A stretch of DNA of 64,000 nt from Ceratodon purpureus. Its lineage: Eukaryota; Streptophyta; Bryopsida; Pseudoditrichales; Ditrichaceae. Below, piece after piece: positions 6,267 through 48,169 of this stretch. The position numbers were made by a program, and so were the translations under genes. A model generated the notes under the pieces. It did no database searches. It had not been told where the DNA came from and was given only the letters and a program-made list of their open reading frames with translations. Every line of letters begins with the position of its first letter. The stretch's first letter is position 1. Where the stretch lies: the NCBI GenBank assembly GCA_014871385.1, contig CM026422.1, forward strand, positions 17,363,199 through 17,427,198. The letters are read 5' to 3'.

Positions 6267-6352
6267 TACATTTCTTCAGACTTCTAGTGGCATTCGTCGT
6301 GTGACCATTATTTTACGACCTTACCTTTAAAAGTCCTCACATTGAGAATTAC

Positions 6353-7966
6353 GAATCATTGGACCTCGCCTTCCACTTTCTGGGGTTGAATTGAGGAGGT
6401 TACTTCACCCCGAGCTCACTTCGGCTCGGGAGGAGATTCCCAGCGTGTGAAGGAAGGAAGGCGTAACATCAACTAATCTGAAGAATTATCTTGTGGCTTC
6501 AGCAGCTCTTGTTGAGGTGTGTGAAGATGCTGCAAATGACATTGTGCCTACATAGATAGGTGTCTTCTCAATTTCCAAGTCTCTAACCCTAGCTGCATTA
6601 TCGTTGTGCAATCACGGCGTTGAGGGGCCGTTGCGAGGAGTAAGCAATGTCACCGTGAGGTTCGCACAAGTTGTGTGCCTACGAGCTTGATGCAACCAAG
6701 GCCTCTGTAGTTTAGTCAAGTGCTTGAAGGACCTTGACACTTGTAGACTAACACTGGATGAAGTTATCTCAGCACTGAACTCTGCTTTCGACTTACAAGG
6801 GGTTTATTCAAATTACACCAAAAACACAGAGTAGAGAAGGTTTGAATTCATAGGCAGATCATTTCTCAAGTTTAGAGAGCCTGTAAAGTGTAGCTTAAGT
6901 CGCCGTGTCTCTCTTGAGTCTTTCCCTGCTTGCTCCTTCCCTGATGATAGACAGTAAGAGCAATTCCTTTGCGTCTACAATTAGTGACCACACAAAACAT
7001 TGATTGTATTTCAAATTAGATGATTCTCCTGCCTTCGGGCTTTCATACCAGCGTTAATAAATGCATTTATTTATGCAGATTCACATGATAGCATTGTCGT
7101 TTATTTCCTTGTGAAGATTTGGAGCACTCTGTCCGTGCGGTAAGGCTTGAATGAGGGTTGGACTGCGTTTGCTTTGAGTGACTAACATTGTGGTTCTTCA
7201 GGAGATATGGATAAGCATCCTCTCCATTGACTCACTAACAGTGTATTTTGTCTCTATGTCTTAGCTAAGGCGAATGTGGTTGTTGGCATTCAGCTGATGC
7301 CTCGTAATGTTGGTTATGTGGAGGCGTCACTATCTGCTTGAAATGCAATGTATGCATTTGCCAAGAACATGGTCTGGGTCTCAAAGTATTTTGGGATCCA
7401 GTGTTGCAGATCTTAGGCTTACTGAGAAGGGAAGGACGTGAGCCTGAGTGAACAAATTAAATTGTTTACGAGCTGGAGGTTGAGGAGTCTTAGTAACAAA
7501 TGGTTCGCACTTACAGATATGGTCTAGGCTTTATGACGGGACCAGTAGTGTCGGGAATGTGTAGTGATGTGCTACGACAGGACTCCCAATGTCATGGACC
7601 CTTGGCTTTAAACTCTTTGCACATCCGTGTTTGGAGCAGGTTCCAATTTAACTTGCGCAGAATTCTTATTTTCAAGGACCCTGTTTGCGAGTCTGTAGAG
7701 AGAGGCATCATCCACTGTAACTTTGTTTATTATGCAATTATCTTTCTGCAGGCTGGATGATAGGAGTCCATATCACGTTTAAGGTATTCCAGGTAATGCA
7801 ATAGTGAAACCATTCCCAGACAATGAAGTGTGGCATCAAAATGACGGCACCTAGCCATTTATTATGTACACATCGCCAAAAACCTCCTTTGAGGTGCACA
7901 TAAAGTAGAGCTCTCCAAAACGATAAACTAGACCTTCACCTGCAGACCAAGTCGACAAATAATAAT
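6353..7966. other. RBCS downstream region shared by all three repeat copies
   Basis: This 1.6 kb stretch is repeated at 26831-28451 and, up to about 34061, at 32616. No conserved protein frame was found; an 86-codon frame at 7500 is altered between copies. It contains a short imperfect palindrome, AAATGCATTTATTTATGCA, near 7060. Confidence 0.6.
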
Positions 7967-16186: not shown

Positions 16187-17256
16187 TATGCCTCAAGAGG
16201 TCTATGTAACAACAATGACTCAAAGATGTATGTAGGGTGTTGGCAAGCTACACCGAGTACACTTTGGGCAGATTTAAGAAGTACTTCCCGTGTACATTTC
16301 TACCCAGATGTACTTGATGTACTTTTTTCGGATAATCTGAGCCGTCCATATCATCACTGCGTGCCACCGGCACCCAAGCTCATATCGACCAATGAGAAAG
16401 CATAAGACCGGTGGTTGTAGGTACCTCGATTGGGTGGTACCTGCCGTAGCCGGTAGTCTTCGTCTCGCACTTCCAACGTCACTTTGTCTCGTTCACTGGT
16501 CGATGTTTGCTCGTCTCGGTGTTGTTGTCTCTCTCGTTGGTGTGTTGTGGTTTTGCATCATAGTTAAAACTTTGGAGTTTGGAGAGGAGTCAATGTGTTA
16601 TTTGTTTTACGTTGGTTCAGATAGAGGGTTAGAGTTTTTAGGGTGAGATAGAGAGATAGAGAGTCAGAGGGTTTGTGTGTGAGATACTTGTGATGAGCTT
16701 AGGGTTGAGTTTGCTATCGTAGTTTTTGGTATTTTTGCTATCGTTTCGCTAGTTCAGATGGGGATTGAGGGTTTTGCTTCAAAGGATTAGAAAGTAATGT
16801 GGCTCCGAGGTTTCAGTTTGTAGCGACTATTTCGGATATGGTTTCTCTGCTGGTCGAGGTTTTAAGTTGGGTTTTAGTTTTCAAGGTTTTGCTTCAAGTA
16901 GGTTTTTGTTGCGGTTTAGTTTGTTTAGGGTGTCTCGCAATGTCTAGGAGGTCTAAGTCCGGGGGGGGGGAGAAGGACTAAAAGCAAGTTCTCGGGATGG
17001 AAAGGTTAAGTCGGGAGTTGATGCTGGATCTGGAATGGGAGTTAAAATCGGGAAGACTAGGTCCGGTGGGAGCGAGGTGGTAGGGGTTTCGGTGAAGGAG
17101 GAGGAGCGTTTTCTAGAGGTCGGTGATTTGGAGGAGTTGATAGCGAGTTTGAAATCCCCTCCAGATTTGCTAACTTGGGAGGACTTCCGCGATAGATATG
17201 CTTTGGAGTACAACCCTAACTCTATCAACCCGCATCGCTGTCGCAAAGATAACGAA
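16187..17256. other. Shared RBCS-unit spacer with a small conserved ORF
   Basis: This stretch is repeated at 30536-31606. It contains a small plus-strand frame, MSRRSKSGGG... from 16941, followed after a G-run by a shifted frame with KEEERFLEVGDLEELIASL and PPDLLTWEDFRDRYAL, ending near 17283. In copy 2 the same two frames also disagree across the G-run (31268-31633). The amino-acid pattern looks genuine (acidic, helical), but no family is recognised. It may be the decayed first exon of an unknown or retroelement gene. Confidence 0.4.
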
Positions 17257-18229
17257 CACTACAACAAATCCAGCCCAATGTGACTAGTTGTAAACCGGCC
17301 CATGTGACCGCCTAGTCACATCAGTCATTAGTTTAGTCAAAATTCAGTCACAACAGAGTCCAGTCATGGACTAGTCATGGACGAGTTATATACCTGGTCA
17401 TTTTTTTGAGGACCTGGACGGGAACGTCTTCAGGAACAGGCCATATGTTCCCCGGCGCTGTTCCCATAGTCATGCTTTGAGTGCTTACTATCTGGAGTCA
17501 TACTAACATAGTCATATGGTTTTAGTATTAGAATCTTCTATGACTGTGTTTTGTAACATATTTCATTTGAGTGACTACATGTCGTCATGGAGTCATTCAT
17601 CTCACTAATCGTAGTCATTTATTTCAATCAAGTGACTCGACAAAATTTTCTACTCGAGGCCTCAATGGGTTAGTGCTGTAAAGTTGGGGTAGGTCCATCA
17701 TCTTCATTTGCAGGTACATACTAGACATATATATTCACAGAATTACATTCACTAGATATCTAGAATACAATTCTAAAAAAAGAATACATGTTTGCATGAG
17801 ATGCACCAAATATTATGACTCCACTTTGTCTACCTTCCTACTTAGGGTTTCCAGATGCATGAAGATTGCTTGTACTATTAATCATGCTATAAATTTCCAT
17901 CGCCGACAATTGAACCTTTATTAATTGCCTCTCCATATCATTTTGAGCAGTTACACTGATTGCCAACAGAATGTAGTCATGTTGAGAGTCATATAGACAG
18001 TTTCCTTTACTTATATTGGTCATTGGTTTGTGTATGGCTCCATGTCGTAATAACTTTGATCTGGGTGACTATGTGTAGTCATGTAGTCATTACCTTGACT
18101 AATAACAGTCATATATTTTTATTCGGGACATTACACTGTGAACACTTAAAAAAATCAATTAGTGCCAAAATCTACATAGTGTGATATATAATTTTTAATT
18201 TATGAAACTAGTGCTCTTATCTTTTTGTA
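17257..18229. mobile_element. Putative non-autonomous CACTA-like element, copy 1
   Basis: The left end reads CACTACAACAAATCC, the canonical CACTA terminus. The right end reads TTTTTGTAGA, a degenerate complement. The interior is packed with TGACTA/TAGTCA motifs in both orientations (at least fifteen), a pattern typical of CACTA subterminal repeats. It has no transposase. Its right end coincides with the breakpoint of the RBCS tandem repeat. The same element is at 31607-32579. A 3-base target duplication could not be confirmed, so the superfamily is tentative. Confidence 0.5.
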
Positions 18230-18260
18230 GACCTTACCTTGAAAAGTCCTCACATTGAAA

Positions 18261-18369
18261 ATTACGGACTAGGTAACCAGTGGGACAAGGAGGGTTACGG
18301 GATGAAGCCGAGTCCGGTGGTCGAGGCTCATCCGTAACCCTCCTCGTCCCCCTGGTTACCGTACGTAAT
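18261..18369. repeat. Left-terminal palindrome of the recombinase element
   Basis: The outer parts ATTACG..GGTAACC and GGTTACC..CGTAAT pair. The inner arms GGTAACCAGTGGGACAAGG and onwards pair with the complementary strand ending CCCCCTGGTTACC, with only two mismatches in 29 bases. An inner GATGAAGCC/GGCTCATC pair extends the stem. The whole sequence can fold into a near-continuous cruciform arm. It begins on the target ATTAC. Confidence 0.85.
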
Positions 18370-18397
18370 TATCGGTCGTTGGACGGATTCGCTGCTT

Positions 18398-18490
18398 TTC
18401 GTTCGCCTCGGGTGTATTGATTCGCTTGGGTGTATTGATTTGCTTTGGTGTATCGATACGCTTCAGTGTATTGATTCGCTTGCATTAGTT
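18398..18490. repeat. 19-base tandem array near the left end of the recombinase element
   Basis: Four to five imperfect copies of GGTGTATTGATTCGCTTG occur in tandem. Position and length are suggestive of subterminal recombinase binding sites, by inference only. Confidence 0.6.
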
Positions 18491-19399
18491 CAGATGCATG
18501 ATCGGAAATTTGTGACCGGTTTGTTTCAGTTTTGCACATCGTTGGTATATTGTATTACATGCTGATACGACTTAGCAACGCATGGAGGAGTCCAATATCC
18601 AATATAAGTCCTTTCTAATTAAATTTGGTGTTAAAAACCAAGTGGTCTAGAATACACCACTGTGATATCATCTTCAAAGCCATGGTTACGTTTTTCACAC
18701 CGCACTTGATCGACCACTTAGAAGTTAGCCTGACACAACTGAGTCTCTGACACTTGCAAGTCTAACCTGACTTGTGACCTGAGTAGCGATAGACGTAAGC
18801 GGTAGACGTTTTGTGCAGATGCACTTAGCACGCCTGACTATAATGCCGGTAAATAAGAAAAAACCAAACCCCATCTTCCAAGCACAGTGTGGTAAGTAAG
18901 GCTCGTTTCGATTCCAAAGTTTCGGAAAGTTTTGCAACGTCTCAAAAGAATGAAATGCGTAATACTCTAGTTTCGAAACTGATACGAAAGGAATACGAAA
19001 CGGACCGAATCCTGTTTGAATAAGTAAACTTCAAGATTTCCTGTCTCAAACTATAGGACAGTGGGATATTTAGTTTGCTAAAGAAAGCTTCAACCAAATC
19101 CACGAAACTACTTTGTAAATGTATGTCTTTCTTCAGAGACAGTGTCTTCTGACATCCAGTCCTGCAAGAAAGAGCAAAGGACGTTCAGAAATCTTGTCAT
19201 GCTGCAAACCTAAGAGTGGATTCGACAGCAGAACCACCCTCGTTAATAACTTTTGCAAGAGAGTAATAAAGTGCAAGGGGGCTATACCATTCTGTGGGTA
19301 CTAGTTATATGCACTCTGATAGACTACGACAACCTATAACATGGTGATCATGCTATTCATGCAAAAGATAGCATCTGAAAACGCAATTTACATACCTCT
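18491..19399. other. Element left arm, non-coding
   Basis: Only short, unconvincing frames are seen. It is probably the 3' region of the minus-strand gene at 19400-19999. Confidence 0.4.
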
Positions 19400-19999
19400 T
19401 TAGTGTTTCATCTTCTTTGCCTTGCGCTTAGCAATCATCTCTGCCTTGCGCTTAACAATCATCTTGTCATTGTCGTAGTTGTCCAAGTCGTCATCTTCAT
19501 CTTCATCCTCTGTCTGTGTGGCAGTGGATAACTTGATGTAAGCTTTCTTTTTTTCCTCTGCCTCTGTCTCCATCAGCAGGTTCTTGATAGAAATGATCTG
19601 ATTCTTGATGTAAGTGAGTTGGTTCTTCTTATTCCTTGGAGGGTGCATCACCCCAGTTGCATTTGCAACGGCCACAAATTGCCTCAAAGCTATGGAATTC
19701 CAAGTTCCATCCCATCCTTCAGAAACCATCCCCGAAACTTTGTCAAATGCAGGTACTTCATACTTTGTTGTCTCTTGAAATTTGGCCAGATCCTTCAGCC
19801 AATGTCGTAGGCATGGCAGCTTGACAGGTGCATCTTTCATGAATTGAAACTCATTCCCTCTCCTTGATGCTGAATCTTTCCAGACTGGAAGCTCTGGTTG
19901 CTCGCAGTCTCCATTGAAGACCACTTCGGGTTCCTCTTGGGAGGTTGAACCGTCCTCAATCTTCATCTTCCCCTTCTTGATGATCGGATCCTGTTCCAT
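19400..19999 (-). CDS. Element-encoded hypothetical protein, 199 aa
   Basis: An uninterrupted minus-strand frame from ATG at 19999 to TAA at 19400. The N-terminus is charged. The middle has LRHWLKDLAKFQ, SEGWDGTWNSIALRQFVAVA and PPRNKKNQLTYIKNQI, a mixed helical segment that could bind DNA. The C-terminus has an acidic DEDEDDDLDNYDND run followed by a strongly basic KRKAEMIAKRKAKKMKH end, a likely nuclear localisation signal. The ATG is two bases after an acceptor (TTACAG). The upstream leader exon (about 20127-20162) is the mirror copy of the recombinase leader exon, so the two genes probably share regulatory sequence. The family is not recognised. Confidence 0.65.
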   Translation of the reverse strand: MEQDPIIKKGKMKIEDGSTSQEEPEVVFNGDCEQPELPVWKDSASRRGNEFQFMKDAPVKLPCLRHWLKDLAKFQETTKYEVPAFDKVSGMVSEGWDGTWNSIALRQFVAVANATGVMHPPRNKKNQLTYIKNQIISIKNLLMETEAEEKKKAYIKLSTATQTEDEDEDDDLDNYDNDKMIVKRKAEMIAKRKAKKMKH

Positions 20000-20052
20000 A
20001 CCTGTAACATGTAGGAAAAAAAATTCAAAAAAATATTAGAAAATTCTATTCA

Positions 20053-20318
20053 TTAACATAAACAGTGAAAACATTTGAAACAAATGACACAAGCGAAATC
20101 AATTGAAATGAAGTGGAATCGGTGGCTCACCTCTTGTTGCGATCGATCCAGTAGATCCTCCCAAACCTGCAAAACCCGATCTCAACATAGAGCAGCAGAA
20201 TCAGCAAAGCCATCGAATGCGAATAACAGACAAAAACAAATATCATATTCCTACAACACGATCTAAAAACAACAAGATAAAAACAACGTAGAAGGTGCAC
20301 TATCCAAAGGTTTGGAAC
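20053..20318. repeat. Inverted repeat, left arm, with leader exon of the minus-strand gene
   Basis: This arm is the near-perfect reverse complement of 22578-22861, apart from one gap of about 18 bases and a few substitutions. It carries acceptor, leader exon (TTTGCAG|GTTTGG..., ...CAACAAGAG|GTGAGCC) and the following intron, oriented towards the minus-strand ORF. Confidence 0.9.
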
Positions 20319-21032
20319 AACATGAACATCATCAAAGACATATTATGGTAACAGTTGATTAAGAAAGTTTGAGGAAACAAACCTGACACGATGCAAGAAT
20401 CAGACCCCTTTGGCCTGCAACGCCAACACAGAGGAATGGCAACAGTGAGTTACCAGAAACAGACAGTAATTCATTAACTTGACCTTATTGAACTCAATGT
20501 AACACGTATGGCAAGGTGAGACTAGTGTACAAAACGTAGGACAAGTACCTTAATTGTTAAAAGCAAAATAGCAAAATAGAGTAAGGTTTAATGTGTATAA
20601 CCTTCGTAAGTACTACGACATGAATGGTTGTACGCGATAAACACAAAGTGCTACTTCAGAAATGCTTCATCTGAAGGATGCAGTCGACTTCCCGAATATG
20701 CGAGAGAAACTTGTTCCCGAGACCCTACATGTCCCGTGCACATCACATGTGAGAATACATTAACTACATTGGTCAATTAAATAATGAAACTAAGTACTAC
20801 TAAATTTTGCAATTGCCCCAACATCCCGATCAAATTGTACAAAGACCAAACATTAGCATTGAGTACTGAGCAAAGATCAGCTCTGAAAAACGCATCACCT
20901 ATTTGCAACTCAAAAAAACACATGAACACTTCATTGCTGCAGTAAGCCTGTTCAACGATAACGACATATAGACATAAAACATAATATGGATGAGACCATC
21001 TGTAAAGTATAAATACAATAAACAAACCTCTC
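20319..21032. other. Spacer between the inverted arms, left part
   Basis: No supported gene. AT-rich, with short frames only. It presumably contains upstream leader and promoter of the minus-strand gene and the intron following the YchF-like exon. Confidence 0.4.
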
Positions 21033-21167
21033 CTTGACTCGCACCCTTAACAAGACCAGCAATGTCCACGAACTCCACACTTGTGGGAACAATCTTCTGG
21101 GACTTGCTGAGGTTCGACAGAACCTCCACCGTGGGTCTGGCACAGCTACCATGCCAACATTGGGCTC
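21033..21167 (-). pseudogene. Captured exon of a plastid-type YchF/OLA1 GTPase, frameshifted
   Basis: On the minus strand the exon begins [14 protein letters not shown] and, after a one-base loss, continues [18 protein letters not shown] then [16 protein letters not shown]. It ends at GGAGAG|GTTTGT, a splice donor. This is the segment between G1 and G3 of YchF-family GTPases, including the DIAGLVKGA switch region; the SKSQK..PTS wording resembles the plastid paralogue. One T appears to be missing after the CGG Arg codon, so the two halves are in different frames. No other GTPase motif (G1 P-loop, G4 equivalent) is nearby. It is therefore a fragment, lying inside the spacer of the recombinase element. 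Confidence 0.8.
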
Positions 21168-22577
21168 TATCGTGCAAAAAGGAAAGTTTGCCTAAAAAAA
21201 AAGAAACTTTTCCCCCAGACTCTCACCCCACAACCCACTAGACCACCTCAACAACAGCTGCTCCCACTACGCCATGATCCCATCCTCCCAAGGGCAGGCT
21301 CTAGAACATTCCAGCCCTGTAGACTTGGACAATCGATCAAATCTCCGCAGCAAGCAAGCAAGCGAGATTGACTACAGCGCAGGCAATGCAACACCAAACT
21401 CTCACTACCATCACGAAACCACCTTCCAACGCAGAAAAACCGAAAAACCGATGCACACACAATCCAACACCAACCAACAAACTCAAAAACTCACCTGCTA
21501 CGGAACTTGCGTTGCTGGCGATGCCGGTGCCAAAGCTCCAAGTTTTCTCGACACCAAATGAACTGGGCGTAGCTTTTCTCCTTCCCTCCTTGTTCTGAAA
21601 GCTTCTACTTGCTTCCTCTGCTTTCCCACTACTCCATCTCCTTCAACAGTCCATCTGCACGTTGCGCATTCATGAACTTTTTGGTTAGTAAAATGTAACA
21701 AATCTCATGAACTCCTCTCGAAGTGACAGACCACGTTTGCATTGCGTGTGGACAGGTCGACGGGCTGCCACCGGTAGCAAAAAACAAAACTCAGTTTGAA
21801 TTTACCGGCATGGCCGGTCATTATACCTGCTGAGCCGGTCTCCAGTAAACATAGCGGGAACATGGCGGGAACATATCGGGAGCTTGTTGGGAACGGGCAC
21901 AGGATTGAGAATGGGGACTAGGAATCCGGGCCGTTGGTGCTGTTTGTCGCGGCGTGATCGACGGTTGCTGTGTCGTCTTCTAGGGTTTGAGTTCAGGTTT
22001 TTCATTTAGATTCTCTTCATTTGGAGTTTGCATTCATTTCTGTGTTTCATTTCTTCGCATTGATTGGCTTCTCATTTACTGGTGATTTGCTCCGGCATTG
22101 ATTGTTGTGCATTTAATTCTCTGCATTTAATGCTCCGCATTTAGTGCAGATTTTCTTTGAGCACATGCTTTCGATTTGTTCCTCATTGTTGCTGCGGTCG
22201 TGCATCTATCGATCCTCATTTTTTGGGATCATTACTCTGCGTTGATCTTGTTCTTCGCTCCGCATTGTATCTTTCTCTCTCCATTCGCTTGCTGCACTTG
22301 TTTCGCGTTTGCTGCACTCGCTCCGCATAATTTCTCTGAAGCATTTGCGGAATAATCTGCCATCTGCAGAAGCCGCGTTGAAGGAGCAGGTATCAGGTAC
22401 GTAAGCTTTTTGTCTTTCTTGTTTGATCGTATTGTTTTGTCTTTGCTTTTGTTTGACTATTTCTACCTTTCTTTTTGATCTTATAAGTTTTGTCATTGCT
22501 TTTGTTTGATCGTATCTTTCTTTCCTGTACAGGTGATCCTCAGACTTCAGTATAGCGCATTGGAGATCGAAGACCTC
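21168..22577. other. Spacer between the inverted arms, right part
   Basis: A donor-like GTAGCAG|GTGAGT on the minus strand near 21496 follows a frame reading KTWSFGTGIASNASSVA. It may be a first exon linked to the YchF fragment. The right half (21800-22560) is T-rich with several CGTAT/TTTGATCG motifs and probably holds the recombinase promoter and leader. Nothing firmer is supported. Confidence 0.35.
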
Positions 22578-22861
22578 TTCCAAACCTTTGGATAGTGCAC
22601 CTTCTACATTGTTTTTATCTTGTTGTTTTTAGATCGTGTTGTAGGAATATGATATTTGTTTTTGTCTGTTATTCGCATTCGCTGGCTTTGCTGATTCTGC
22701 TGCTCTATGTTGAGATCGGTTTTTGCAGGTTTGGAAGGATCTACTGGATCGATCGCAACAAGAGGTGAGCCACCGATTCCACTTCATTTGTTTTGATTTC
22801 ATTTCATTTCAATTGATTTCGCTTGTGTGATTTGTTTCAAATGTTTTCACTGTTTATGTTA
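22578..22861. repeat. Inverted repeat, right arm, with leader exon of the recombinase gene
   Basis: Reverse complement of 20053-20318. It contains TTTTTGCAG|GTTTGGAAGGATC...CAACAAGAG|GTGAGCC at about 22720-22770, the same leader exon as the minus-strand gene, followed by a T-rich intron. Confidence 0.9.
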
Positions 22862-23025
22862 CGGTATTATGCATGCTACAGGAGCATGCGTTATTTCTAA
22901 TTTATTTTATGATTTTGTCTTTTGCAGCATTCAACAGGATACAGCAGGGTAGCAAGGTTTCTGATCTAGTGTTTTCTAATTTTTGTTTTGATGTCTTAGG
23001 TGTCGGTTTTTTGTTTTCTTTCATC

Positions 23026-25693
23026 ATGGTGGAGGTTAGAGTTAGGAGTCATTCTACTAAGGGGAAGAGGGGAAGGGCTTTGTTGAAGAGAGCCAGTGCT
23101 GATGGACCTGTTTGTGATCGTCCCCCTCTTGGGGTTTTTGATTCGGGGGTTTGTGTCAATAGCCCTGGTCGTTCACCGATTTCCAAGAAATCAACGAAGT
23201 CCAGGAGAAGTCGTTTGCCTCGTAAAATTGAGGCTAGTTTCAGTGCTGCATCTGCAGCTGTAGAGAGCGAGGTAGTTCCAGCTATAGAGAGCGAGGTAGT
23301 TCCAGCTGTAGAGAGCGAGCCATTGCCCGAGAGGGAGGTGACACAATGTGGTTCTATAGCTCATATAGCTAATACACATGTGCATGGTTTGGATTCATCT
23401 ACAGTAGATGAACGACCAACGCCAGATACAGCCGGTCGTGAATTCCACGATCCTCAGCGACGTGGTCTTGAATTCCACGATCCTTTTTCTGGTCTTGATT
23501 CGCTTTTAGAGTTGGAATGTGGTTCTAAGGATGAGCTTTCATTCGATACGTCTTTGGCTGCTCCTCAAGCCGGTTGTTTGTTACTTGATGTACCTGTTAC
23601 TCCTCTCGAGGTACCTGTTACTGCTTCTGTCGAGGCAGTATGTGTCACTCCTTCTGTCGAGGTAGTATGTGTCACTCCTTCTGTCGAGGCAGTATGTGTC
23701 GCTCCTTGTGTCGAGGCAGTATGTGTCGCTCCTTGTGTCGAGGCAGTATGTGTCGCTCCTTCTGTCGAGGTAGTATGTGTCGCTCCTTCTGTCGTGGCAG
23801 TTGATCCTGGAAATTCTTCTAAGAAGAAGAGTTGCACATTTCTTCCATTGGATCCTGAGATTTTTGAATCAGTGTGTTACATGGATGAAAGCAAAAGCAT
23901 TAAGAATGAGAGGTGGGCGGCAAACAGATTCCATGCTTGGCGAGAATCTGTAGGTCTGAGTACTTCTGTGAGTATTGTTGACCTGCCGCTTGAAGATCTA
24001 GCAGATCTTCTTACTCGTTTTTTTCTCTATCTATGCAAAGACAGTGGTGAACGGTATCCTTCTGGATTGATTGGAAATATGTATGATTCTTTCCATAGAA
24101 TCGTTGGACGCCACCAAGCTAAGCAGATGAAACTTCAGAAAATTAAAGAACCTCTGATAAGAATATCTGAGCATCATTTCTTTGTTCAGACTAATGCTGC
24201 AGTTGTTAAATCAATAGAGCTCTCAAGAGATGCAGGAGTTAATAAGCCAAGGAAAAAACCTAAGAGTCTGACCTTTGCTCAGGAGGCAATGATATTAAAT
24301 CATCCTTCTCACCAGTTGACCTCAGCCAGAGGTCTTACCAAGCGTATATTGTATCAGTGCATGTCTAAGTTTGTCATTTGTGGTGGAAAGGAGGCATATA
24401 ATCTAAAGTATAAAGATTTTGTTCGTGGTGTGAATTCCGCTGGAGCACCGTACGTTCAGTAAGTCTCATAAAACTTTTTATTTTTTTTTATTTGCTTGGT
24501 TATTTAGTAAGCTTGTTTGGATTTCTCTGTTTCGACTGTATTGATGTTCTCAGTTCCTTGCTTCGAGCTTTTTTGTTTGCTTATTTTATGTTTTGCTTTG
24601 TGTTTTGCTTTTATGTTTTGCTCTGTGTTTTGCTTTTATGTTTTGCTTTGTTATCTTCAAGTCTGGATTTAATTTACATGGTTTTTTTTTGTTTATTAGG
24701 TACAATAAGAGGCTGTCAAAAAATAACAAAGTGTCACTGAGCCGCTGTCAGGATGAACACTTCCGACCACCCGTGACTTCTTACTCCCATGATGTTGTTA
24801 TGACATGGGCTACTTATGATGAGCATCTTTCAGAGGACATGAAGAATAGTGCACTGTTTCTCACTTCCATTCCTGAATCAACATCAAAGGTATGGTATAA
24901 GAATACTCCAGTTGGCCTTTGTACAATCAGTAATTGGTTGAAAGTAATGGTTGCTGAAGCTAATGTTCAAGGAGTAGTGACGAACAAAACTGGAAGGAGA
25001 ACTGCTATATCTTGCATGGCTATTGCTAACGTGCCGAGGAATGTCATGAGTGAAGTCACTGGTCACAAGAGCGCTACTTCACTTGATCGCTACGATGATA
25101 CTCTAGATGTTTCTAGAGAGGCTGCCATGCGAGCTTTGGATGCTGCACCTGTTGGCGGTGTAGTTCAACAGTATTCATCGCTGAAGGCTCAGGTTGCTAG
25201 GGACTACATTGATCATAATGCTGTAAATGTTCCATCAGCATTGAAGAAGGTTCCACCGAGTACCAACCTAAGTGTCGTTCCTTACTTTGCTAATTTTCCG
25301 TATGCTGGTTCTGATTGGATGAATAGTCCTACACATACTAATCTCGTTGGAACTAATCTACATCAGAGTAGTAGACAGTTTCCGGTTACTGAAGCATCGG
25401 ATCCAAGTACTGGAAGACCGCTTCAGGGTACTGGGCCACCAACTGAGATAAGTGGACATGGTCAAGTTGATATGGAGCCTCGATGTGCGGCTTATGTGCA
25501 TCAGAGTCCGGCTTATGTGCATCAGAGTTCGGCTTATGTGCATCAGAGTCCGGCTTATGTGCATCAGAGTCCTGTACCATTGCATCCACGTACTGGACCA
25601 CCGCTTCAGGGTACTAGACCACCGACTCAGATAAGTAGACCGCCGGGTATGTCAAGTGGTCAAGCTGATATGGAGCCTAGATTTGCGGCTTAA
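23026..25693 (+). CDS. Crypton-type tyrosine recombinase (probably inactive)
   Basis: Two coding exons, 23026-24458 and 24700-25693, joined CA|G with GTAAGT..TTATTAG. The N-terminus is basic and Ser-rich (KSTKSRRSRLPRK). A low-complexity linker with 8- and 9-residue repeats follows. The SAM-like N-terminal domain has KNERWAANRFHAWRESVG, then LPLEDLADLLTRFFLYLCK and RYPSGLIGNMY. The catalytic domain follows. Box I reads FVICGGKEAYNLKYKDF, where related recombinases have Arg before GGKE. Box II reads NKTGRRTAIS...VMSEVTGHKSATSLDRYDD, keeping KxxR, His-Lys and the nucleophile Tyr. The C-terminal tail has four AYVHQSP repeats. The closest family is the Crypton/ZMYM-KIAA1958 recombinase group. Family call by motif; inactivity inferred from the Arg to Cys change. 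Confidence 0.8.
23618..23800 (+). repeat. 27-base in-frame tandem repeats in the recombinase linker
   Basis: About seven copies of a 27-base unit encode variants of PSVEAVCVA. Codon-level divergence is small, so the array is recent or homogenised. Confidence 0.85.
25487..25573 (+). repeat. 21-base in-frame tandem repeats near the recombinase C-terminus
   Basis: Four copies of a 21-base unit encode AYVHQSP/S. They lie between two larger related blocks, PLQGTGPPTEIS...MEPRCAA and PLQGTRPPTQIS...MEPRFAA. Confidence 0.85.
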
Positions 25694-25723
25694 GGTTCAG
25701 CAAGGTGTATAGGTGCCTGTGAA

Positions 25724-25981
25724 GTGCACTACAAAGTTGGAGTTTCACCTCAATCTGGCAAGTTTGAGGTTGCTAAAAACCCTTATGGCAATCAGAAGAA
25801 GCATGGCCAGGTCTTCAAATCAGTTCCCCCACAATACGCCAAGACTGCTGGACAAATGTTACGTGAGGCCGACTTTGCAGAAGGATGGACCTACGGTGTC
25901 GAAGCGAGACTTCGTAATCCTGTTGATGGTACTTACTGTAAGCTTGATGATGTTTCAGGTTTCTCCGATTTAGAGCTGTAA
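25724..25981 (+). CDS. Small element ORF 1, unknown, 85 aa
   Basis: Starts 31 bases after the recombinase stop. The protein reads MHYKVGVSPQSGKFEVAK..., then KKHGQVFKSVPPQYAKTAG and EGWTYGVEARLRNPVDG, and ends in an acidic SDLEL. It has a plausible compact-domain composition and no recognised family. It may be a separate cistron or a further spliced exon of the recombinase. Confidence 0.4.
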   Translation: MHYKVGVSPQSGKFEVAKNPYGNQKKHGQVFKSVPPQYAKTAGQMLREADFAEGWTYGVEARLRNPVDGTYCKLDDVSGFSDLEL

Positions 25982-25987
25982 GATATC

Positions 25988-26257
25988 ATGAACAACTTTG
26001 AGCGCAATGAAGAGGCACCGAAGAGGAGTGTTAGAGAAGAAGGTCAAGGTGGCGTTGCAGGCTCTTCTACTATGGCCGAGTCAAAACCCTGCGCTGTAGG
26101 GGATGGTGTGGTTGCTGTCACGAGTAAAGAATTGCGACCACTGCAGTCAGAGTCTCGACCTCCATCAACTCCATTTAGTCAGTTGACGAATATTAACATG
26201 GTTTTCGGTAGTGAGCAGATGGAATCAGTTCTAAATAGATTGTTTGGTTCGAAGTAA
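25988..26257 (+). CDS. Small element ORF 2, unknown, 89 aa
   Basis: Starts 6 bases after ORF 1 stops. It is charged at the N-terminus (NNFERNEEAPKRSVREE), then Ser/Pro-rich, and ends NMVFGSEQMESVLNRLFGSK, a likely amphipathic helix. The close spacing with ORF 1 suggests one transcript. No family recognised. Confidence 0.35.
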   Translation: MNNFERNEEAPKRSVREEGQGGVAGSSTMAESKPCAVGDGVVAVTSKELRPLQSESRPPSTPFSQLTNINMVFGSEQMESVLNRLFGSK

Positions 26258-26511
26258 TTTAGACCATGTTTTTCTCCCTCAAGTAATTGTGACGTTGAAT
26301 AGTTAGAAATAATGAGGGAGTTTTTAATGCAGGTCTTTCTTCTCAGCTGTATGAAAATTTTGAAATAAAAAACAGTACATTCGGAGAAAATTGTGTACAG
26401 TTGTCTGATTCTAGTCGTTTGAATGGTCTGTTTTTGAATTATGCTTTTGTGCATGGATTCAAATCTTTGGAGCATGGTTAGGAATGTAATTTCCTGAATT
26501 CACGAAAAAGT

Positions 26512-26735
26512 GTGTGGTTACGAGGTGTTTCGTGTGTGGTTATGAATATAATTTCTTGAATTCTCGGAAAAGTTGTGTGGTTATGGGAAAAGTGGTGTCG
26601 TTATGGGAAAAAGTGGTGTGCTTATAAGAAAAGTGGTGTGATTATGGGGTGGTAGGTGCATGGTTATGAGTCTTTTTCCAGAATTTACGGACAAGTAGTC
26701 GAGTTATGGAGTCTTAGGTTTGTGGTTATGAGTTT
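26512..26735. repeat. Right subterminal GTGTGGTTAYG repeat array of the recombinase element
   Basis: About nine imperfect copies of GTGTGGTTATG(G/A) followed by (G)AAAA occur at 20-30 base spacing. The element's right boundary itself is GGTTACG, matching the repeat core. This suggests recombinase binding sites. Confidence 0.7.
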
Positions 26736-26830
26736 GATTCCTAAGTTTACAGTAGACTGAGTGCGGCTACGGTTTATAACCGGGTCTTCTAGACCTATGG
26801 GGAGGGGCACGTCACCCGACCGATGGTTAC

Positions 26831-28451
26831 GAATCATTGGACCTCGCCTTCCACTTTCTGGGGTTGAATTGAGGAGGTTACTTCACCCCGAGCTCAATTC
26901 GGCTCGGGAGGAGATTCCCAGCGTGTGAAGGAGGGAAGGCGTAACATCAACTAATCTGAAGAATTATCTTGTGGCTTCAGCAGCTCTTGTTGAGGTGTGT
27001 GAAGATGCTGCAAATGACATTGTGCCTACATAGATAGGTGTCTTCTCAATTTCCAAGTCTCTAACCCTAGCTGCATTATCGGTGTGCAATCACGGCGTTG
27101 AGGGGCCGTTGCGAGGAGTAAGCAATGTCACCGTGAGGTTCGCACAAGTTGTGTGCCTACGAGCTTGATGCAACCAAGGCCTCTGTAGTTTAGTCAAGTG
27201 CTTGAAGGACCTTGACACTTGTAGACTAACACTGGATGAAGTTATCTCAGCACTGAACTCTGCTTTCGACTTACAAGGGGTTTATTCAAATTACACCAAA
27301 AACACAGAGTAGAGAAGGTTTGAATTCATAGGCAGATCATTTCTCAAGTTTAGAGAGCCTGTAAAGTGTAGCTTAAGTCGCCGTGTCTCTCTTGAGTCTT
27401 TCCCTGCTTGCTCCTTCCCTGATGATAGACAGTAAGAGCAATTCCTTTGCGTCTACAATTAGTGACCACACAAAACATTGATTGTATTTCAAATTAGATG
27501 ATTCTCCTGCCTTCGGGCTTTCATACCAGCGTTAATAAATGCATTTATTTATGCAGATTCACATGATAGCATTGTCGTTTATTTCCTTGTGAAGATTTGG
27601 AGCACTCTGTCCGTGCGGTAAGGCTTGAATGAGGGTTGGACTGCGTTTGCTTTGACTGACTAACATTGTGGTTCTTCAGGAGATATGAATAAGCATCCTC
27701 TCCATTCACTCACTAACAGTGTATGTTGTCTCTATGTCTTATCTAAGGCGAATGTGGTTGTTGGCATTCAGCTGATGCCTCGTAATGTTGGTTATGTGGA
27801 GGCGTCACTATCTGCTTGAAATGCATTGTATGCATTTGCCGAGAACATGGTCTGGATCTCAAAATATTTTGGGATCCAGTGTTGCAGATCTTCGGCTTAC
27901 TGAGAAGGGAAGGACGTCGGCCTGAGTAAACAAATTAAATTGTTTACGAGCTGGAGGTTGAGGAGTCTTAGTAACAAATAGTTGGCACTTACAGATATGG
28001 TCTAGGCTTTATGACGGGACCAGTAGTGTCGGGAATGTGTAGTGATGTGCTACGACAGGCCTCCCAATGTCATGGACCCTTGGCTTTAAACTCTTTGCAC
28101 ATCCGTGTTTGGAGCAGGTTCCAATTTAACTTGCGCAGAATTCTTATTTTCAAGGACCCTGTTTGCGAGTCTGTAGAGAGGGACATCATCCACTGTAACT
28201 TTGTTTATTATGCAATTATCTTTCTGCAGACTGGATGATAGGAGTCCATATCACGTTTAAGGTATTCCAGGTAACGCAATAGTGAAACCATTCCCAGACA
28301 ATGAAGTGTGGCATCAAAATGACGGCACCTAGCCATTTATTATGTACACATCGCCAAAAACCTCCTTTGAGGTGCACATAAAGTAGAGCTCTCCGAAAGC
28401 CAAAACAATAAACTAGACCTTCACCTGCAGACTAAGTCGACAAATAATAAT
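26831..28451. other. RBCS copy 2 downstream region
   Basis: Counterpart of 6353-7966, with scattered substitutions. No gene seen. Confidence 0.6.
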
Positions 28452-29549
28452 CTAGTTAGGCCTGGCGACCAAGAAACCGCAGATCTGCACCTGCCTCACG
28501 TTGTCGAAGCCCAATACGCGCACGAAGCAGCTGGGGTACTCCTTCTTGCACTCCCCAATCTCGCGCAACACCTGGGAAGCGTCGTTGCACCCGAACATGG
28601 GCAACTTCCACATGGTCCAGTAGCGCCCATCATAGTATCCTGGGCTCTGGTTGTTGGCGCGCGACACACCGTCGGAGTTCTGTACAACATTGTGTTCATG
28701 AGGATCAATCCCTTACAATTGTAAAGCCCGTCATCCGACTTGGAAACTACGGAACGACGATAACCCTCAAGGACTCACTCAAAACCTTCATTCTGACATG
28801 CAAGAAGGAAAGATTGAAATGAACTAGCTATGATTGGCGAACACTTACAATGTCGAATTCGAGGCAGGGAATGAGCTTCTGCTGAATCATGTAGTCCACC
28901 TGCTTGGCGATCTGGTCATCGGTCAAGGCAGGCAAGTAGGAGAAGGTCTCGAACTTGGTCTGGCCCATGGGGTTCCACACCTGTGTCATAAAAAACTTAT
29001 TTAGAAGCCAACCTTCCCAACGTAACAACATCCCACCATAACCAATGACCGCTATCAACATTGCAGCTCCATAGCTTAATTTGGAAGTATAAATGTCAAG
29101 AATCTAAAACAGCCAAAACGAAATGACCACACCATTGCCATTGAGGCCGCAGTAAGTGGAACACGTCCCAGCCTAATTACACTGGACTTAAACTTCACAA
29201 CTCAACTCCAGACTACTACATGGTAGGCTTATCCGGGACTAGTATTGAAACTATCCATCAGCCGACACTGTAGAATACCGATACAATGCAGAGCAAAAGC
29301 ACGGAAGGTATCATAATTGAAGTACAGTCACAACACAACAAGGAGAGAACCACTTCATACCTGCATGCATTGCACGCGGCTGCCGTTCTGGACGGAGCTC
29401 AAGCTCTGGGCCTTGGAGGCGAAGAGGGTGTTGCTCTTGAGGCCGGTGAAGGCCTTGACGGAGCTCGACTCAGAGGTCGACACTGCCGACGAGGCGGCAG
29501 CGAAGGCAGCAGGGGCCACCGCGGTGGAGGCAGCAACAACGGACGCCAT
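28452..29549 (-). CDS. RBCS: RuBisCO small subunit precursor, copy 2
   Basis: Three exons on the minus strand: 29549-29361, 28980-28849 and 28679-28452, the same lengths and phases as copy 1 (182 residues). The mature protein is identical by reading, including [34 protein letters not shown] and the FLVARPN end. The only residue change is Val for Ile in the transit peptide (SSSVKAF). The exon 1 donor is CAG|GTATG here and CAA|GTATG in copy 1, so this copy has the stronger donor. The intron 1 sequence is slightly altered around 29040. It is expected to be functional. Confidence 0.97.
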
Positions 29550-30535
29550 TGCGAAGGGAAAGCAGCAAAATTGAAATTCTAACAACGAAATGCAGGATGG
29601 TGGAGAAGGTGCGGGATTGCTCCCGAGGAGGGAGTTTTGTAGGGAGTGGGGTGACGAGAGGATGGGGCATCAGGGCCACAGGATGGGCTGGGCCGATGCA
29701 GGATGTTGCACCTGCTGCACTTTTCATTCATTTCTAGGACTTCAGCAAGCTTTGTGGCGAAGTCATTAAATGACTAAGAAATTGACTTAGGGATTTGTTG
29801 CTACTCTAAACAAGAGAAGCAACAAATCCCTAAGCATGACGTAAAATCTAGTAATTTCCAGTGTTGAATCATAGTGTTAGTGATAGTAAAATCCATATTG
29901 TTTGTAAAACCCGTCTTCTAGGGGTTTATAATCCAAATCTAAAAATATTTGGACATCCTTGAGGTGCTAAGATGACACTTTATTCTCTTAAATCGGGTAA
30001 TGGGTCTCCTTCGCATTTGTTAGGATTCAATAAAATTCAAATAGGACAAGTACTCATTATGTGGACAATATTTACAACTCTTTTTTGGCACAATTGAACC
30101 TTTAAAACTAAGATTTGACACAATTGAACCTATGTTGAGTTAACTAATATAATAATTATCAATCTATATTATTGATTTATTTATTGATATATGAGTTACT
30201 ATATAGTCCAATAAGCTTCAGCAAATGATATTTCAAATCAAATCTAAATATTTGTACAAAGTGAAGCTTGGAATTTAGAAGTTTCAATGTTATGCATAAA
30301 ACCGTGTTCATACTTGATGAGGCTGGTGTATCCTTGTACATGTTGAAAACTTTTGAATTCTAAGAAAATAAAAGACATGCTCAGTACAAGGTGACGTATC
30401 AATGACGTGTAAAGTGAAAGACCACAAACCATCATACAAAGATATCAATGATTATTCTCAACATATGATCCATGTGTGATCTTTGTGATTACAGCATCAC
30501 AGGGAAATTTTTAAATGTCCTTGGAAACAAAGAAA
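29550..30535. promoter_or_regulatory. RBCS copy 2 upstream region
   Basis: Conserved with 9055-10049, including the hairpin at 29786-29834. A few bases near 29700 are missing compared with copy 1. Confidence 0.5.
29786..29834. promoter_or_regulatory. Perfect 17 bp inverted repeat upstream of RBCS copy 2
   Basis: Arms 29786-29802 and 29818-29834 are identical to those in copy 1. The 15-base loop differs at one position (CAAGAG for CAAGAA). Confidence 0.75.
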
Positions 30536-31606
30536 TATGCCTCAAGAGGTCTATGTAACAACAATGACTCAAAGATGTATGTAGGGTGTTGGCAAGCTAC
30601 ACCGGGTACACTTTGGGCAGATTTAAGAAGTACTTCCCGTGTACATTTCTACCCAGATGTACTTGATGTACTTTTTCCGGATAATCTGAGCCGTCCATAT
30701 CATCACCGCGTGCCACCGGCACCCAAGCTCAGATCGACCAATGAGAAAGCATCAGACCGGTGGTTGTAGGTACCTGGATTGGGTGGTACCTGCCGTAGCA
30801 GGTAGTCTTCATCTCGCACTTCCAACGTCACTGTGGTCTCCTTCACTGGTCGGTGTTTGTTGGTCTCGGTGTTGTTGTCTCTCTCGTTGGTGTGTTGTGG
30901 TTTTGCATCATAGTTAAAACTTTGGAGTTTGGAGAGGAGACAATGTGTTATTTGTTTTACGTTGGTTCACATAGACGGTTAGAGTTTTTAGGGTGAGATA
31001 GAGAGATAGAGAGTCAGAGGGTTTGTGTGTGAGATACTTGTGATGAGCTTAGGGTTGAGTTTGCTATCGTAGTTTTTGGTATTTTTGCTATCGTTTCGCT
31101 AGTTCAGATGGGGATTGAGGGTTTTGCTTCAAAGGATTAGAGAGTAATGTGGCTCTGAGGTTTCAGTTTGTAGCGACTGTTTCCGATATGGTTTCTCTGC
31201 TAGTCGAGGTTTTAAGTTGGGTTTTAGTTTTCAAGGTTTTGCTTCAAGTAGGTTTTAGTTGCGGTTCAATTTGTTTAGGGTGTCTCGCAATGTCTAGGAG
31301 GTCTAAGTCTTGGGGGGGGGAGAAGCTCTGAAAGCAAGTTCTCGGGATGGAAAGGTTAAGTCGGGAGTTGATGGTGGATCTGGAATGGGAGTTAAAATCG
31401 GGAAGACTAAGTCGGGTGGGAGCGAGGTGGTAGGGGTTTCGGTGAAGGAGGAGGAGCGTTTCCTAGAGGTCGGTGATTTGGAGGAGTTGATAGCGAGTTT
31501 GAAATCCCCTCCAGATTTGCTAACTTGGGAGGACTTCCGCGACAGATATGCTTTGGAGTGCAACCCTAACTCTATCAACTCCCATCGCTGTCGCAAAGAT
31601 AACAAA
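30536..31606. other. RBCS-unit spacer, copy 2
   Basis: Counterpart of 16187-17256. The small ORF pair (31268-31333 and 31310-31633) is again split across the G-run, with different bases around it. Confidence 0.4.
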
Positions 31607-32579: not shown

Positions 32580-34061
32580 GACCTTACCTTGAAAAGTCCT
32601 CACATTGAGAATTACGAATCATTGGACCTCGCCTTCCACTTTCTGGGGTTGAATTGAGGAGGTTACTTCACCCCGAGCTCAATTCGGCTCGGGAGGAGAT
32701 TCCCAGCGTGTGAAGGAGGGAAGGCGTAACATCAACTAATCTGAAGAATTATCTTGTGGCTTCAGCAGCTCTTGTTGAGGTGTGTGAAGATGCTGCAAAT
32801 GACATTGTGCCTACATAGATAGGTGTCTTCTCAATTTCCAAGTCTCTAACCCTAGCTGCATTATCGGTGTGCAATCACGGCGTTGAGGGGCCGTTGCGAG
32901 GAGTAAGCAATGTCACCGTGAGGTTCGCACAAGTTGTGTGCCTACGAGCTTGATGCAACCAAGGCCTCTGTAGTTTAGTCAAGTGCTTGAAGGACCTTGA
33001 CACTTGTAGACTAACACTGGATGAAGTTATCTCAGCACTGAACTCTGCTTTCGACTTACAAGGGGTTTATTCAAATTACACCAAAAACACAGAGTAGAGA
33101 AGGTTTGAATTCATAGGCAGATCATTTCTCAAGTTTAGAGAGCCTGTAAAGTGTAGCTTAAGTCGCCGTGTCTCTCTTGAGTCTTTCCCTGCTTGCTCCT
33201 TCCCTGATGATAGACAGTAAGAGCAATTCCTTTGCGTCTACAATTAGTGACCACACAAAACATTGATTGTATTTCAAATTAGATGATTCTCCTGCCTTTG
33301 GGCTTTCATACCAGCGTTAATAAATGCATTTATTTATGCAGATTCACATGATAGCATTGTCGTTTATTTCCTTGTGAAAATTTGGAGCACTCTGTCCGTG
33401 CGGTAAGACTTGAATGAGGGTTTGACTGCGTTTGCTTTGACTGACTAACATTGTGGTTCTTCAGGAGATATGGATAAGCATCCTCTCCATTCACTCGCTA
33501 ACAGTGTATGTTGTCTCTATGTCTTATCTAAGGCGAATGTGGTTGTTGACATTCAGCTGATGCCTCGTGATGTTGGTTATCTGGAGGCGTTACTATCTGC
33601 CTAAAATGCGTTGTATGCATTTGCCAAGAACATGGTCTGGATCTCAAAGTATTTTGGGATCCAGTGTTTCAGATCTTAGGCTTACTGAGAAGGGAAGGAC
33701 GTGAGCCTAAGTAACAAATTGCTTCAGTTCTGCCGGTGTGAACCTAGTTTGTTTACGAGCTGGAGGTTGATGAGCCTTAGTAACAAATGATTCGCACTCA
33801 TAGATATGCTATAGGATTTATGATGGGGCGAGTAGAGAACCTTACAGTAGATAGTTCCGGAAATGTGTAGTGATGTGCTACCATAGAACTCCCAATGTCA
33901 TGGAACCTTGGCTTTAAACTCTTTGCACATCAGTGTTTGGAGCAGGTTCCAGTTTAACTGGCGCAGAATTCTTATTTCAAGGACCCTGTTTGCGAGTCTG
34001 TAGAGTGAGACATCATCCACTGTAACTTTGTTTATTATGCAATTATCTTTGTGCAGGCTGG
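32580..34061. repeat. RBCS tandem repeat, copy 3 (truncated, no RBCS)
   Basis: Matches copy 1 from 6317 to about 7757 and copy 2 correspondingly, then homology stops at GTGCAGGCTGG, about 210 bases before the RBCS stop codon would appear. It is more diverged towards its right end, with a small insertion around 33720-33750. No gene is present. Confidence 0.85.
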
Positions 34062-34558
34062 GTGAACATGGGGTATTGTGTCTGGAGTAGCTGTTGGATC
34101 ATAGTGGCGATGGCCTACCCTGATGCACCTTCCATACTTTTCTCTAACCATGATGCTGCATCCATCTGGAGTATCTAGTCTACATTTTCCGGTTGAGCAC
34201 GACGATTATTGGAGCTCACGAGGATTCGAAAACATCCGTAAGTTGTTATCTCATACTTAGTTCTCTTTGCAGGTGGAAAGCGGAATTTCAAATTTCTCAA
34301 AATTACTGTATATGTACACTGTACTTCAAGATGCCTATCTGGTTTGTCCCTCAAATGTGATCAGATTTGATATGAAAGAGCTGGTGGATTAAAATGTATT
34401 AGCGTTTCTAGCTTTCAAATATTGTAATTCTATGTATTTATTTATTTACGATTGAACATGTGTGAGGATTATTCTGAGCTTCGTCTATACTAACTATGTT
34501 ATGAAGAGACAGGATAGTGGTTCCAGGGGAAAAAAACTGTGGCCCTTCTATGTCGTCC
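34062..34558. other. Intergenic, nothing recognised
   Basis: Unique sequence between the truncated RBCS unit and the oxygenase gene; it includes the oxygenase 3' end. Confidence 0.4.
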
Positions 34559-48050: not shown

Positions 48051-48169
48051 TTAAATCAAGTCAAAGTCTATGAACATAACGCCATATACAAAATGTAACC
48101 TACACTGTCATCGGTTGCCAAATTCCATTTTTTTACAATGATGTTTGTTTTTAAATAATTAATTTAAAA

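Follow-up and report, generated by a model that had tools for sequence, protein, structure and literature searches.

Cryptons are, to our knowledge, defined by the absence of a DDE transposase, a reverse transcriptase (RT) and a Rep protein. Starships carry a captain tyrosine recombinase (TR) of the DUF3435 type at their 5' end, Helitrons have a Rep/helicase, TC...CTRR ends and AT sites, and the attC site of integrons is a folded single-strand site. In the sections of the 2011 survey drawn on here, Cryptons end in a terminal direct repeat of 4-6 bp with no terminal inverted repeats, some members do carry a DDE transposase, and the hosts are fungi, animals and stramenopiles; the DUF3504 genes of animals (ZMYM2/3/4, QRICH1 and KCTD1) are domesticated forms with most of the catalytic residues gone (PMC3212892). 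In the accessible part of the Crypton-related literature plants occur only as entries in annotation surveys, and among the titles and abstract openings listed by searches of PMC-licensed papers none concerns such an element in a moss.

The window, i.e. the whole stretch of 64,000 nucleotides that was analysed, contains an element of 8,565 bp which self-alignment of the window places directly 3' of TTAC (Table 1). Judging from sequence comparison, it very probably belongs, as a likely dead copy, to a TR-mobilised superfamily of DNA transposons whose diversification took place in this moss-like genome. The left flank (16187-18266) aligns to 30536-32616 at 96.6% and the right flank (26827-28238) to 32612-34065 at 93.8%, so that the two alignments together define an uninterrupted site at 32612-32615/32616. 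A second uninterrupted site is found at 6349-6352/6353, where 6311-7458 aligns to 32574-33720 at 97.7%. The original prediction had described an insertion of about 8.56 kb with exact boundaries and a TTAC repeat, splitting a sequence that is intact at 6352/6353 and 32615/32616; the flank alignments bear this out, both sites aligning without interruption. The palindromic left end (18273-18359), subterminal arrays and accessory ORFs that it listed are all present, and its broader reading is upheld: the locus is a TR-encoding DNA transposon, and the nuclear genome that houses it is moss-like.

Table 1. Features of the element and of its empty sites, in window coordinates.
Feature	Positions	Strand	Basis
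Empty site 1, TTAC/G	6349..6353	+	self-alignment
Target tetranucleotide TTAC, left of insertion	18262..18265	+	empty sites at 6349-6352 and 32612-32615
Whole element, 8,565 bp	18266..26830	+	ends coincide with other copies' ends
7-bp spacer GGACTAG	18266..18272	+	window and other left ends read
Left-end hairpin GTAACC...GGTTAC	18273..18359	+	DNA fold and covariation
Left subterminal 18-bp tandem repeat, 4.1 copies	18410..18482	+	repeat analysis
Companion gene ORF1, 199 aa	19400..19999	-	divergent from TR
Inverted copy of TR leader region, 223 bp, beside ORF1 gene	20095..20317	-	96.9% to 22578-22800
TR gene leader region, one arm of inverted repeat	22578..22800	+	96.9% to 20095-20317
TR exon 1: low-complexity N-terminus, putative core-binding region, first-catalytic-residue box	23026..24458	+	homology
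First catalytic residue codon	24379..24381	+	Cys in window copy
Predicted GT-AG intron	24459..24699	+	inferred from frame and homology
TR exon 2: K-T-G-R, G-H, putative nucleophile Tyr (codons: K 24986-24988, R 24995-24997, H 25064-25066, putative nucleophile Tyr 25091-25093)	24700..25693	+	homology, profiles
TR C-terminal part	25694..26257	+	one open frame in C1a copy
Right subterminal GGTTAY array, six copies including the terminal one	26451..26830	+	6 versus 0.42 in shuffles
Right end GGTTAC	26825..26830	+	TTAC 26827-26830 repeats target
Empty site 2, TTAC/G	32612..32616	+	in neighbouring duplicate

The main gene encodes a tyrosine recombinase and is predicted from frame and homology to be spliced. 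Exon 1 has counterparts at L056 and L019, and its last part at L059; an intron interrupts L056 at the matching residue and, to judge by the frames, L059 close to it. Originally the gene had been placed at 23026-25693, and although its nature as a TR stood, this extent proved too short, because in the C1a copy the frame continues to the counterpart of 26257; the C-terminal frame is homologous in C1b. Two in-frame stops, at 25691-25693 and 25979-25981, break the window frame, and its first catalytic residue is Cys, as in the C12 copy, versus Arg in C1a, C1b, C6, C11 and C5. Since this Arg is replaced and two stops interrupt a frame that is open in a relative, the window copy is probably inactive.

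Profile searches with members of the family agree with the recombinase identity. All four aligned TRs are matched by the Pfam model Phage_integrase, with a best E of 2.4e-8 that by elimination belongs to the C5 member, and by a PHROG integrase family (best 5.4e-11). DUF3504 matches three of the four (best E 2.5e-4, under the curated cut-off) and is the Pfam model that fits the TRs of C1a and the window best; the first of the four aligned TRs is under the curated cut-off for both Pfam models. The residues R..K-[ST]-G-R..G-H..Y are retained in C1a, C1b, C5 and C11, and these four have the Crypton catalytic set R-H(K)-R-Y with Lys replacing His. A PDB profile search with the TR found no TR. A viral origin was considered and rejected, the TR C-terminal domain having no relative in one collection of viral contigs searched for close relatives.

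Twelve of the 13 ORFs of at least 80 aa in the window copy were scanned against Pfam, and these 12 yielded no RT, RNase H, DDE transposase, Rep, HUH or helicase model; the single integrase-core match is at chance level (E 0.033) and falls in an antisense ORF. The absence of DDE transposase, RT and Rep stated in the original prediction, which is also the Crypton criterion, holds for the 12 ORFs scanned. The same result bears on DIRS elements, which use a TR too, according to the portion of PMC4438587 consulted. That the locus is a DIRS-like retrotransposon remnant devoid of RT is scarcely credible: neither the RT nor the RNase H domain of such elements is found in the scanned ORFs of the window copy, and the ends and the two-gene plan are common to diverged copies.

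The ends of the element recur throughout the family. A left-end search matched 11 other places, at nine of which the left terminus is the same; it is altered at C6:22568280, with no right end in the part read, and only partial at C4:9079663, and the spacer is missing from the second unit at C6:89912526. Twelve right ends, that of the window included, terminate at GGTTAC and are followed by host bases. As other copies have the same termini as those at 18266 and 26830, the search for further copies came out in favour of the predicted boundaries, and the mismatch of ends that could have overturned them did not appear. TTAY precedes 18 of 22 left ends collected by a pattern search that made no demand on the target (the reversed pattern gave 0 matches), compared with 0.87% of positions overall (P about 5e-34, if insertions are independent), and is absent before the other four. 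CTAT instead of TTAY stands before two left ends read. Immediately 3' of the right end, all 11 host flanks start with a purine, G in eight cases and A in three. The spacer, of the GNACTAG type in other copies, mostly follows TTAC or TTAT, and in the junctions read it is found at the left flank. Besides the TTAC direct repeat, 6-bp inverted arms (GTAACC/GGTTAC) lie near the two ends, and GGTTAY occurs 6, 8 and 9 times at the right end of three copies versus 0.41-0.48 times in shuffles.

Hephaestus Starships use TTAC(N7)A, and Starships have direct repeats of 2-12 bp and often inverted repeats, as far as the source extends (PMC12153272); the moss element combines TTAC with a 7-bp spacer, its TTAY preference is of the Hephaestus type, and one subfamily has captured a host fragment. 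A kinship in which the moss elements would be small plant cousins of the fungal Starships is nevertheless improbable. The base after TTAC-N7 in moss targets is not always A, and the copies read measure 0.23-12.6 kb against about 20-700 kb in the same partial source (PMC12153272). Moreover, the TR gene sits in the element's right half and not at the 5' end, and no captain model is among the Pfam matches (E<=10 and E<=1, in a Pfam copy that may not hold DUF3435), DUF3504 and Phage_integrase being matched instead. For IS608 the account available gives an insertion point exactly 3' of TTAC and palindromes in subterminal position (PMC5934647), which could point to an IS200/IS605-like (HUH) element or a Helitron. 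This reading is very unlikely: the encoded enzyme is a TR (R-K-R-H-Y), no HUH, Rep or helicase model was matched in the ORFs scanned, the ends are GGACTAG...GGTTAC behind TTAY, and TTAC occurs at both moss ends whereas the right cleavage site of IS608 is TCAA (PMC5934647).

The left-end hairpin of the window has a predicted DNA fold of -30.1 kcal/mol (z -7.5). In the alignment of 11 copies 95.5% of cells are paired, 10 of 36 pairs are changed on both sides, and the covariation of 0.169 exceeds the 0.009-0.032 obtained when the alignment is slid. Of 13 hairpins, 11 keep a GA/GA internal loop and 8 a C-GNA-G triloop, GNA triloops being unusually stable in DNA; each arm of most hairpins carries two copies of the core motif in opposite orientation, separated by a 14-bp gap. 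The symmetry of palindromes can also be maintained through copying errors.

These features can be read in two ways. The moss lineage could extend the Crypton group in the strict sense, a possibility that overlaps with the TR-mobilised superfamily and comes close to an even call without quite reaching it. Double-stranded recombination would then take place between 4-bp direct repeats via a circle, and the hairpin would be no more than a pair of inverted recombinase-binding sites. The inverted core-motif pairs of most hairpins are in keeping with this, as are the 4-bp direct repeat, the TR, the lack of DDE and RT in the scanned ORFs and the weak DUF3504 match; terminal direct repeats of 4-6 bp and non-autonomous derivatives are known in Cryptons from the survey sections used (PMC3212892). 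The name Crypton in the original prediction is thereby supported in part, but the hairpin end with its GA/GA mismatch, the array and the divergent companion gene lie outside the Crypton features described in those sections (PMC3212892), and plain double-stranded inverted sites are not expected to conserve mismatches. Alternatively, the hairpin unites conserved structure with conserved unpaired bases in the manner of attC, and a eukaryotic TR transposon might recombine through a folded single-stranded hairpin like the cassettes of bacterial integrons. This second reading is doubtful, yet the hairpin delivers a sharp and testable prediction on single-strand recombination in eukaryotes.

The element works like a Crypton- or Starship-type element. 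The TR would excise it as a circle with the putative junction GGTTAC-GGACTAG-GTAACC, in which inverted core arms would flank the 7-bp spacer, and would bind the core motif at this junction and along the subterminal arrays. The circle would recombine with a genomic TTAY-R, with a cut after Y. In the junctions read, the spacer ends up at the left flank, a one-sided fate which suggests that a one-strand exchange decides the product. In the doubtful single-stranded reading, only one strand would be exchanged beside TTAY, and replication would complete the insertion.

For the companion gene ORF1 only chance-level Pfam matches and no PDB match at E<=1 were obtained. It is divergent from the TR in 26 of 27 pairs, against a mean of 0.6 and a maximum of 4 in 200 random placements. 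At least 121 of 148 ORF1 places are without a TR match within 12 kb, for which reason ORF1 may have been exchanged among different elements. In a comparison of seven ORF1 copies (L048-L054) with the window locus (L046) only the ORF1 exon matches, save for a 32-bp piece in two, and in L048 pieces of the TR leader match besides. As a guess, its product probably serves as a DNA-binding accessory or directionality factor of the TR system.

The family survey covers one genome, in which 69 TR matches reach E<=1e-3. Contamination is ruled out, since copies are spread over many chromosome-size contigs, including one of 110 Mb. Short gene-less copies of 231-384 bp have both element ends, and the distant C5 subfamily, represented by one left end read (CTAC/GTACTAG/GTATTGG plus hairpin), follows the same predicted plan. 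A host dehydrin gene fragment was captured by one subfamily (C5/C2 copies) and is now present at two loci, hence these elements can carry host DNA; a 706-bp stretch of the C9 copy, considered as a second captured host gene, is element sequence because further elements also have it next to ORF1, so that only the dehydrin fragment looks foreign. With its defined target, its structured end and a second gene that is conserved, this large and diverse TR superfamily of a moss-like plant opens eukaryotic TR transposition to direct testing.

How does the moss element compare with the known systems? With Cryptons (CryptonA/F/I/S) it shares the TR, the short terminal direct repeat and non-autonomous derivatives; it differs in the long covarying hairpin at one end, the GGTTAY array at the other, the divergent companion gene and the land-plant host, a comparison made by description rather than by sequence and within the survey sections used (PMC3212892). 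The DUF3504 genes of animals are linked to the moss TRs by the Pfam model that best fits C1a and the window copy; they differ in being domesticated and in having lost most catalytic residues (PMC3212892). Hephaestus Starships, as partly described in PMC12153272, likewise target TTAC with an interval of 7 bp, use a TR, possess short direct repeats and transport host DNA, whereas the moss element is far smaller, matched no captain model, has its TR in the right half and ends in a hairpin. IS608 (IS200/IS605) uses an HUH Y1 enzyme on single strands and has a right end without the TTAC repeat, but in the account available it resembles the moss element in inserting exactly 3' of TTAC and in the palindrome near its left end (PMC5934647). 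Finally, the strand-biased circularising integrative (SE) elements are bacterial, unlike the moss element, and their att sites are without inverted repeat structure in the text consulted; they nonetheless have a TR, a 6-bp spacer and a one-strand exchange that forms a circle (PMC9345347).

The genome holding the window measures 362.5 Mb, and the window lies on its contig C2. The window element stands directly behind a TTAC and its final four letters are TTAC again. Its flanks make up one sequence that is present twice, uninterrupted, elsewhere in the window (left flank 16187-18266 versus 30536-32616, 96.6% identity; right flank 26827-28238 versus 32612-34065, 93.8%; 6311-7458 versus 32574-33720, 97.7%). 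The exact boundaries, 18266 and 26830, claimed in the original prediction are confirmed; the insertion was observed correctly and is a genuine finding. The window holds three related segmental copies with an identity of about 94-98%; the element occupies only one of them and the other two provide empty sites.

Features in the window (window coordinates)
Feature	Position	Strand	Remark
TTAC before element	18262-18265		
Element	18266-26830		8,565 bp
ORF1	19400-19999	minus	companion gene
TR exon 1	23026-24458		followed by GT-AG intron
TR exon 2	from 24700		
TR stops	25691-25693; 25979-25981		
Inverted repeat	20095-20317 / 22578-22800		223 bp, 97% identical
Segmental copies	6311-10049; 16187-18265 + 26827-30537; 30536-34065		
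Tandem and inverted repeats	46890-49770		AT-rich

A DNA search of the genome with the tyrosine recombinase (TR) gene identified relatives on contigs C1 (two), C7, C12 and C6, plus a piece on C13, and a search with the left end gave 11 matches outside the window. Nine of these 11 carry the terminus G-N-A-N-[TA]-A-G with a hairpin behind it, the remaining two being altered at the left terminus (C6:22568280) or partial (C4:9079663). An extra left end, that of a 231-bp element, immediately follows the C1a copy's right end; the element's own TTAC end thus served as a target. The right ends of 12 elements, including the window element and the nested 231-bp one, all stop at GGTTAC, the one at C2:25818532 having been placed by eye; the C6:22568280 copy showed no right end. 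The comparison of ends called for at the outset therefore came out in favour of the prediction on both sides. The smallest copy measures 231 bp and the largest about 12.6 kb; the short ones (231-384 bp) are gene-free. Over the 993 bp that lead to the right end, C1b and C11 share 98.4% identity, and they begin to diverge at one and the same letter.

When left ends were sought blind to their flanks with the pattern GNACTAGGTAACCNGGGG, the genome contained 22 matches, and none to the reversed pattern. TTAC or TTAT precedes 18 of the 22, a count obtained by comparing their coordinates with the 43 hits of TTAYGNANTAGGTAACC (16 TTAC, 27 TTAT; four for the reversed control); the exceptions lie on C8, C9 (two) and C12. 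TTAY makes up 0.87% of positions in the window and fetched regions, which gives P of about 5e-34 on the assumption of independent insertions, a value that is too strong because the left ends are related copies, two of them only 33 bp apart on C7. The junctions are polar: every spacer-bearing left junction read keeps the 7 bp on the left side, behind TTAY in nine and behind CTAT in two, and all right junctions read GGTTAC followed by host bases or the nested element, the first host base being G in eight and A in three of 11 host flanks. If the window ends were joined in a putative circle, they would read GGTTAC-GGACTAG-GTAACC, inverted arms flanking 7 bp; TR sites are described as inverted repeats 6-8 bp apart (PMC3212892).

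RNAalifold on eleven copies of the left hairpin yields 36 pairs, 10 of them with changes on both sides and 95.5% of alignment cells paired; covariation is 0.169, against 0.009-0.032 when the alignment is slid, and is matched by none of 500 shuffles that retain the relatedness of the copies. Of 13 hairpins, two of them with identical sequences, 11 have a GA/GA internal loop at the tip and eight a C-GNA-G loop. Such conservation may stem from an RNA role, or the arms may be plain double-stranded binding sites; a mismatch stays unpaired within the symmetrical palindrome, which suggests that the folded form of the left end itself matters. The right end is an array: within about 383 bp GGTTAY occurs six times in the window, eight in C1a and nine in C1b, whereas the figure for dinucleotide shuffles, 500 per copy, is 0.41-0.48, none of them reaching the real counts, and many C1a and C1b repeats are spaced about 21 bp.

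The assignment of the protein to the tyrosine recombinases is upheld by profile searches. Single exons match Pfam Phage_integrase only weakly (E 0.021). Three spliced proteins reach 3.0e-4 to 4.3e-4 for DUF3504 and 0.023 to 1.9e-4 for Phage_integrase, all below curated cut-offs. All four aligned TRs match both Phage_integrase (best 2.4e-8) and PHROG integrase (best 5.4e-11), and three match DUF3504. The residues R, K (in the place where H is usual), R, H and Y are retained in the C1a, C1b and C5 TRs; in the window and C12 copies the first arginine is replaced by cysteine. The window gene has two stops, the C1a exon-2 frame is open across both places to the common end, and additional mismatches occur in the window hairpin. 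This copy is probably dead, but there are relatives whose frames are open as far as they were read.

For the 147-aa C-terminal domain of the TR, the genome has at least 126 matches at E<=1 and at least 69 at E<=1e-3, these being pieces rather than genes. A TR match of a different subfamily (C2:17337680-17338075, 55% identical, one stop) lies about 25 kb before the window start, with similar matches on several contigs. The more distant C5/C9/C2/C14 TRs are 43-45% identical. The left end of the C9 copy reads CTAC|GTACTAG|GTATTGGTCGGGAGG and then a hairpin, a boundary set by analogy in one copy; 123 nt of the hairpin, folded as DNA, give -67.4 kcal/mol (z -14.3), and the stem is unlike that of the window family in sequence, while the overall plan agrees. 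The left part of the C5 copy of this group holds 472 bp (locus L060, 359-830; C5:6456259-6456730), flanked by two stretches shared with C9, whose end is an open dehydrin frame (Pfam Dehydrin, E 5.3e-11). Over the portion examined, from L060 560 onward, identity to C1:12658023-12658296 is 99%, and this portion also sits, again in the left part of the copy, at the same junction of the element in C2:10875408-10875848; the left junction of the fragment is seen in C5 only. Since C9 and C14 carry element sequence there, recurrent beside ORF1 in further elements, a host gene fragment was probably captured in one lineage and is now at two loci.

ORF1 (199 aa) has only chance-level matches in Pfam and none in PDB at E<=1. 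It has 152 genomic matches, and 148 ORF1 places (90 on C6) were paired with 119 TR places, contig ends being approximated by the largest coordinate. Within 12 kb, 26 of 27 pairs have ORF1 upstream in divergent orientation (mean 0.6, maximum 4 when placed at random); TRs matched only at E 0.04-0.8 are included, one of which reads NKTPRR...TGHR...Y. The majority of ORF1 places have no TR match nearby. Apart from an ORF1 exon of about 487 bp (92.6-94.7%), seven ORF1 loci (L048-L054) resemble the window locus little, L048 additionally sharing leader pieces (82-93%), and ORF1 may have passed from one type of element to another. These loci and many places on C6 (110.5 Mb) represent an abundant element or gene family with ORF1 and little else in common with the window element. 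By virtue of the 223-bp inverted repeat, the leader regions of the two divergent genes are almost alike in the window copy; for the C1b and C7 copies, sequence comparison finds just one counterpart. A separate 199-aa ORF (locus L063, ATG near 336) to the right of the C5 TR gene shows weak similarity to the window TR's N-terminal region (E 9e-4, two-sequence comparison) and is perhaps a TR relative without the catalytic domain.

Among titles and abstract openings of PMC-licensed papers, no description of such elements in a moss was found. As far as the accessible text goes, one survey counts Crypton among the superfamilies present in all groups, land plants included (PMC4438587), and a plant transposon comparison has 535 Crypton entries (PMC8729191), neither giving their anatomy. 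Membership of DIRS, Helitron or HUH elements is unsupported, and no Starship captain model was among the matches. Of the Crypton features, part are present, and the element is best called a Crypton-like, TR-mobilised DNA transposon with a structured end, which makes an unusual mechanism testable. The word TTAC is also used by Hephaestus Starships (PMC12153272) and IS608 (PMC5934647), and this may be convergence. In its presumed way of working the element resembles Cryptons, Starships and bacterial integrative elements, which are TR elements that have short direct repeats and form circles.
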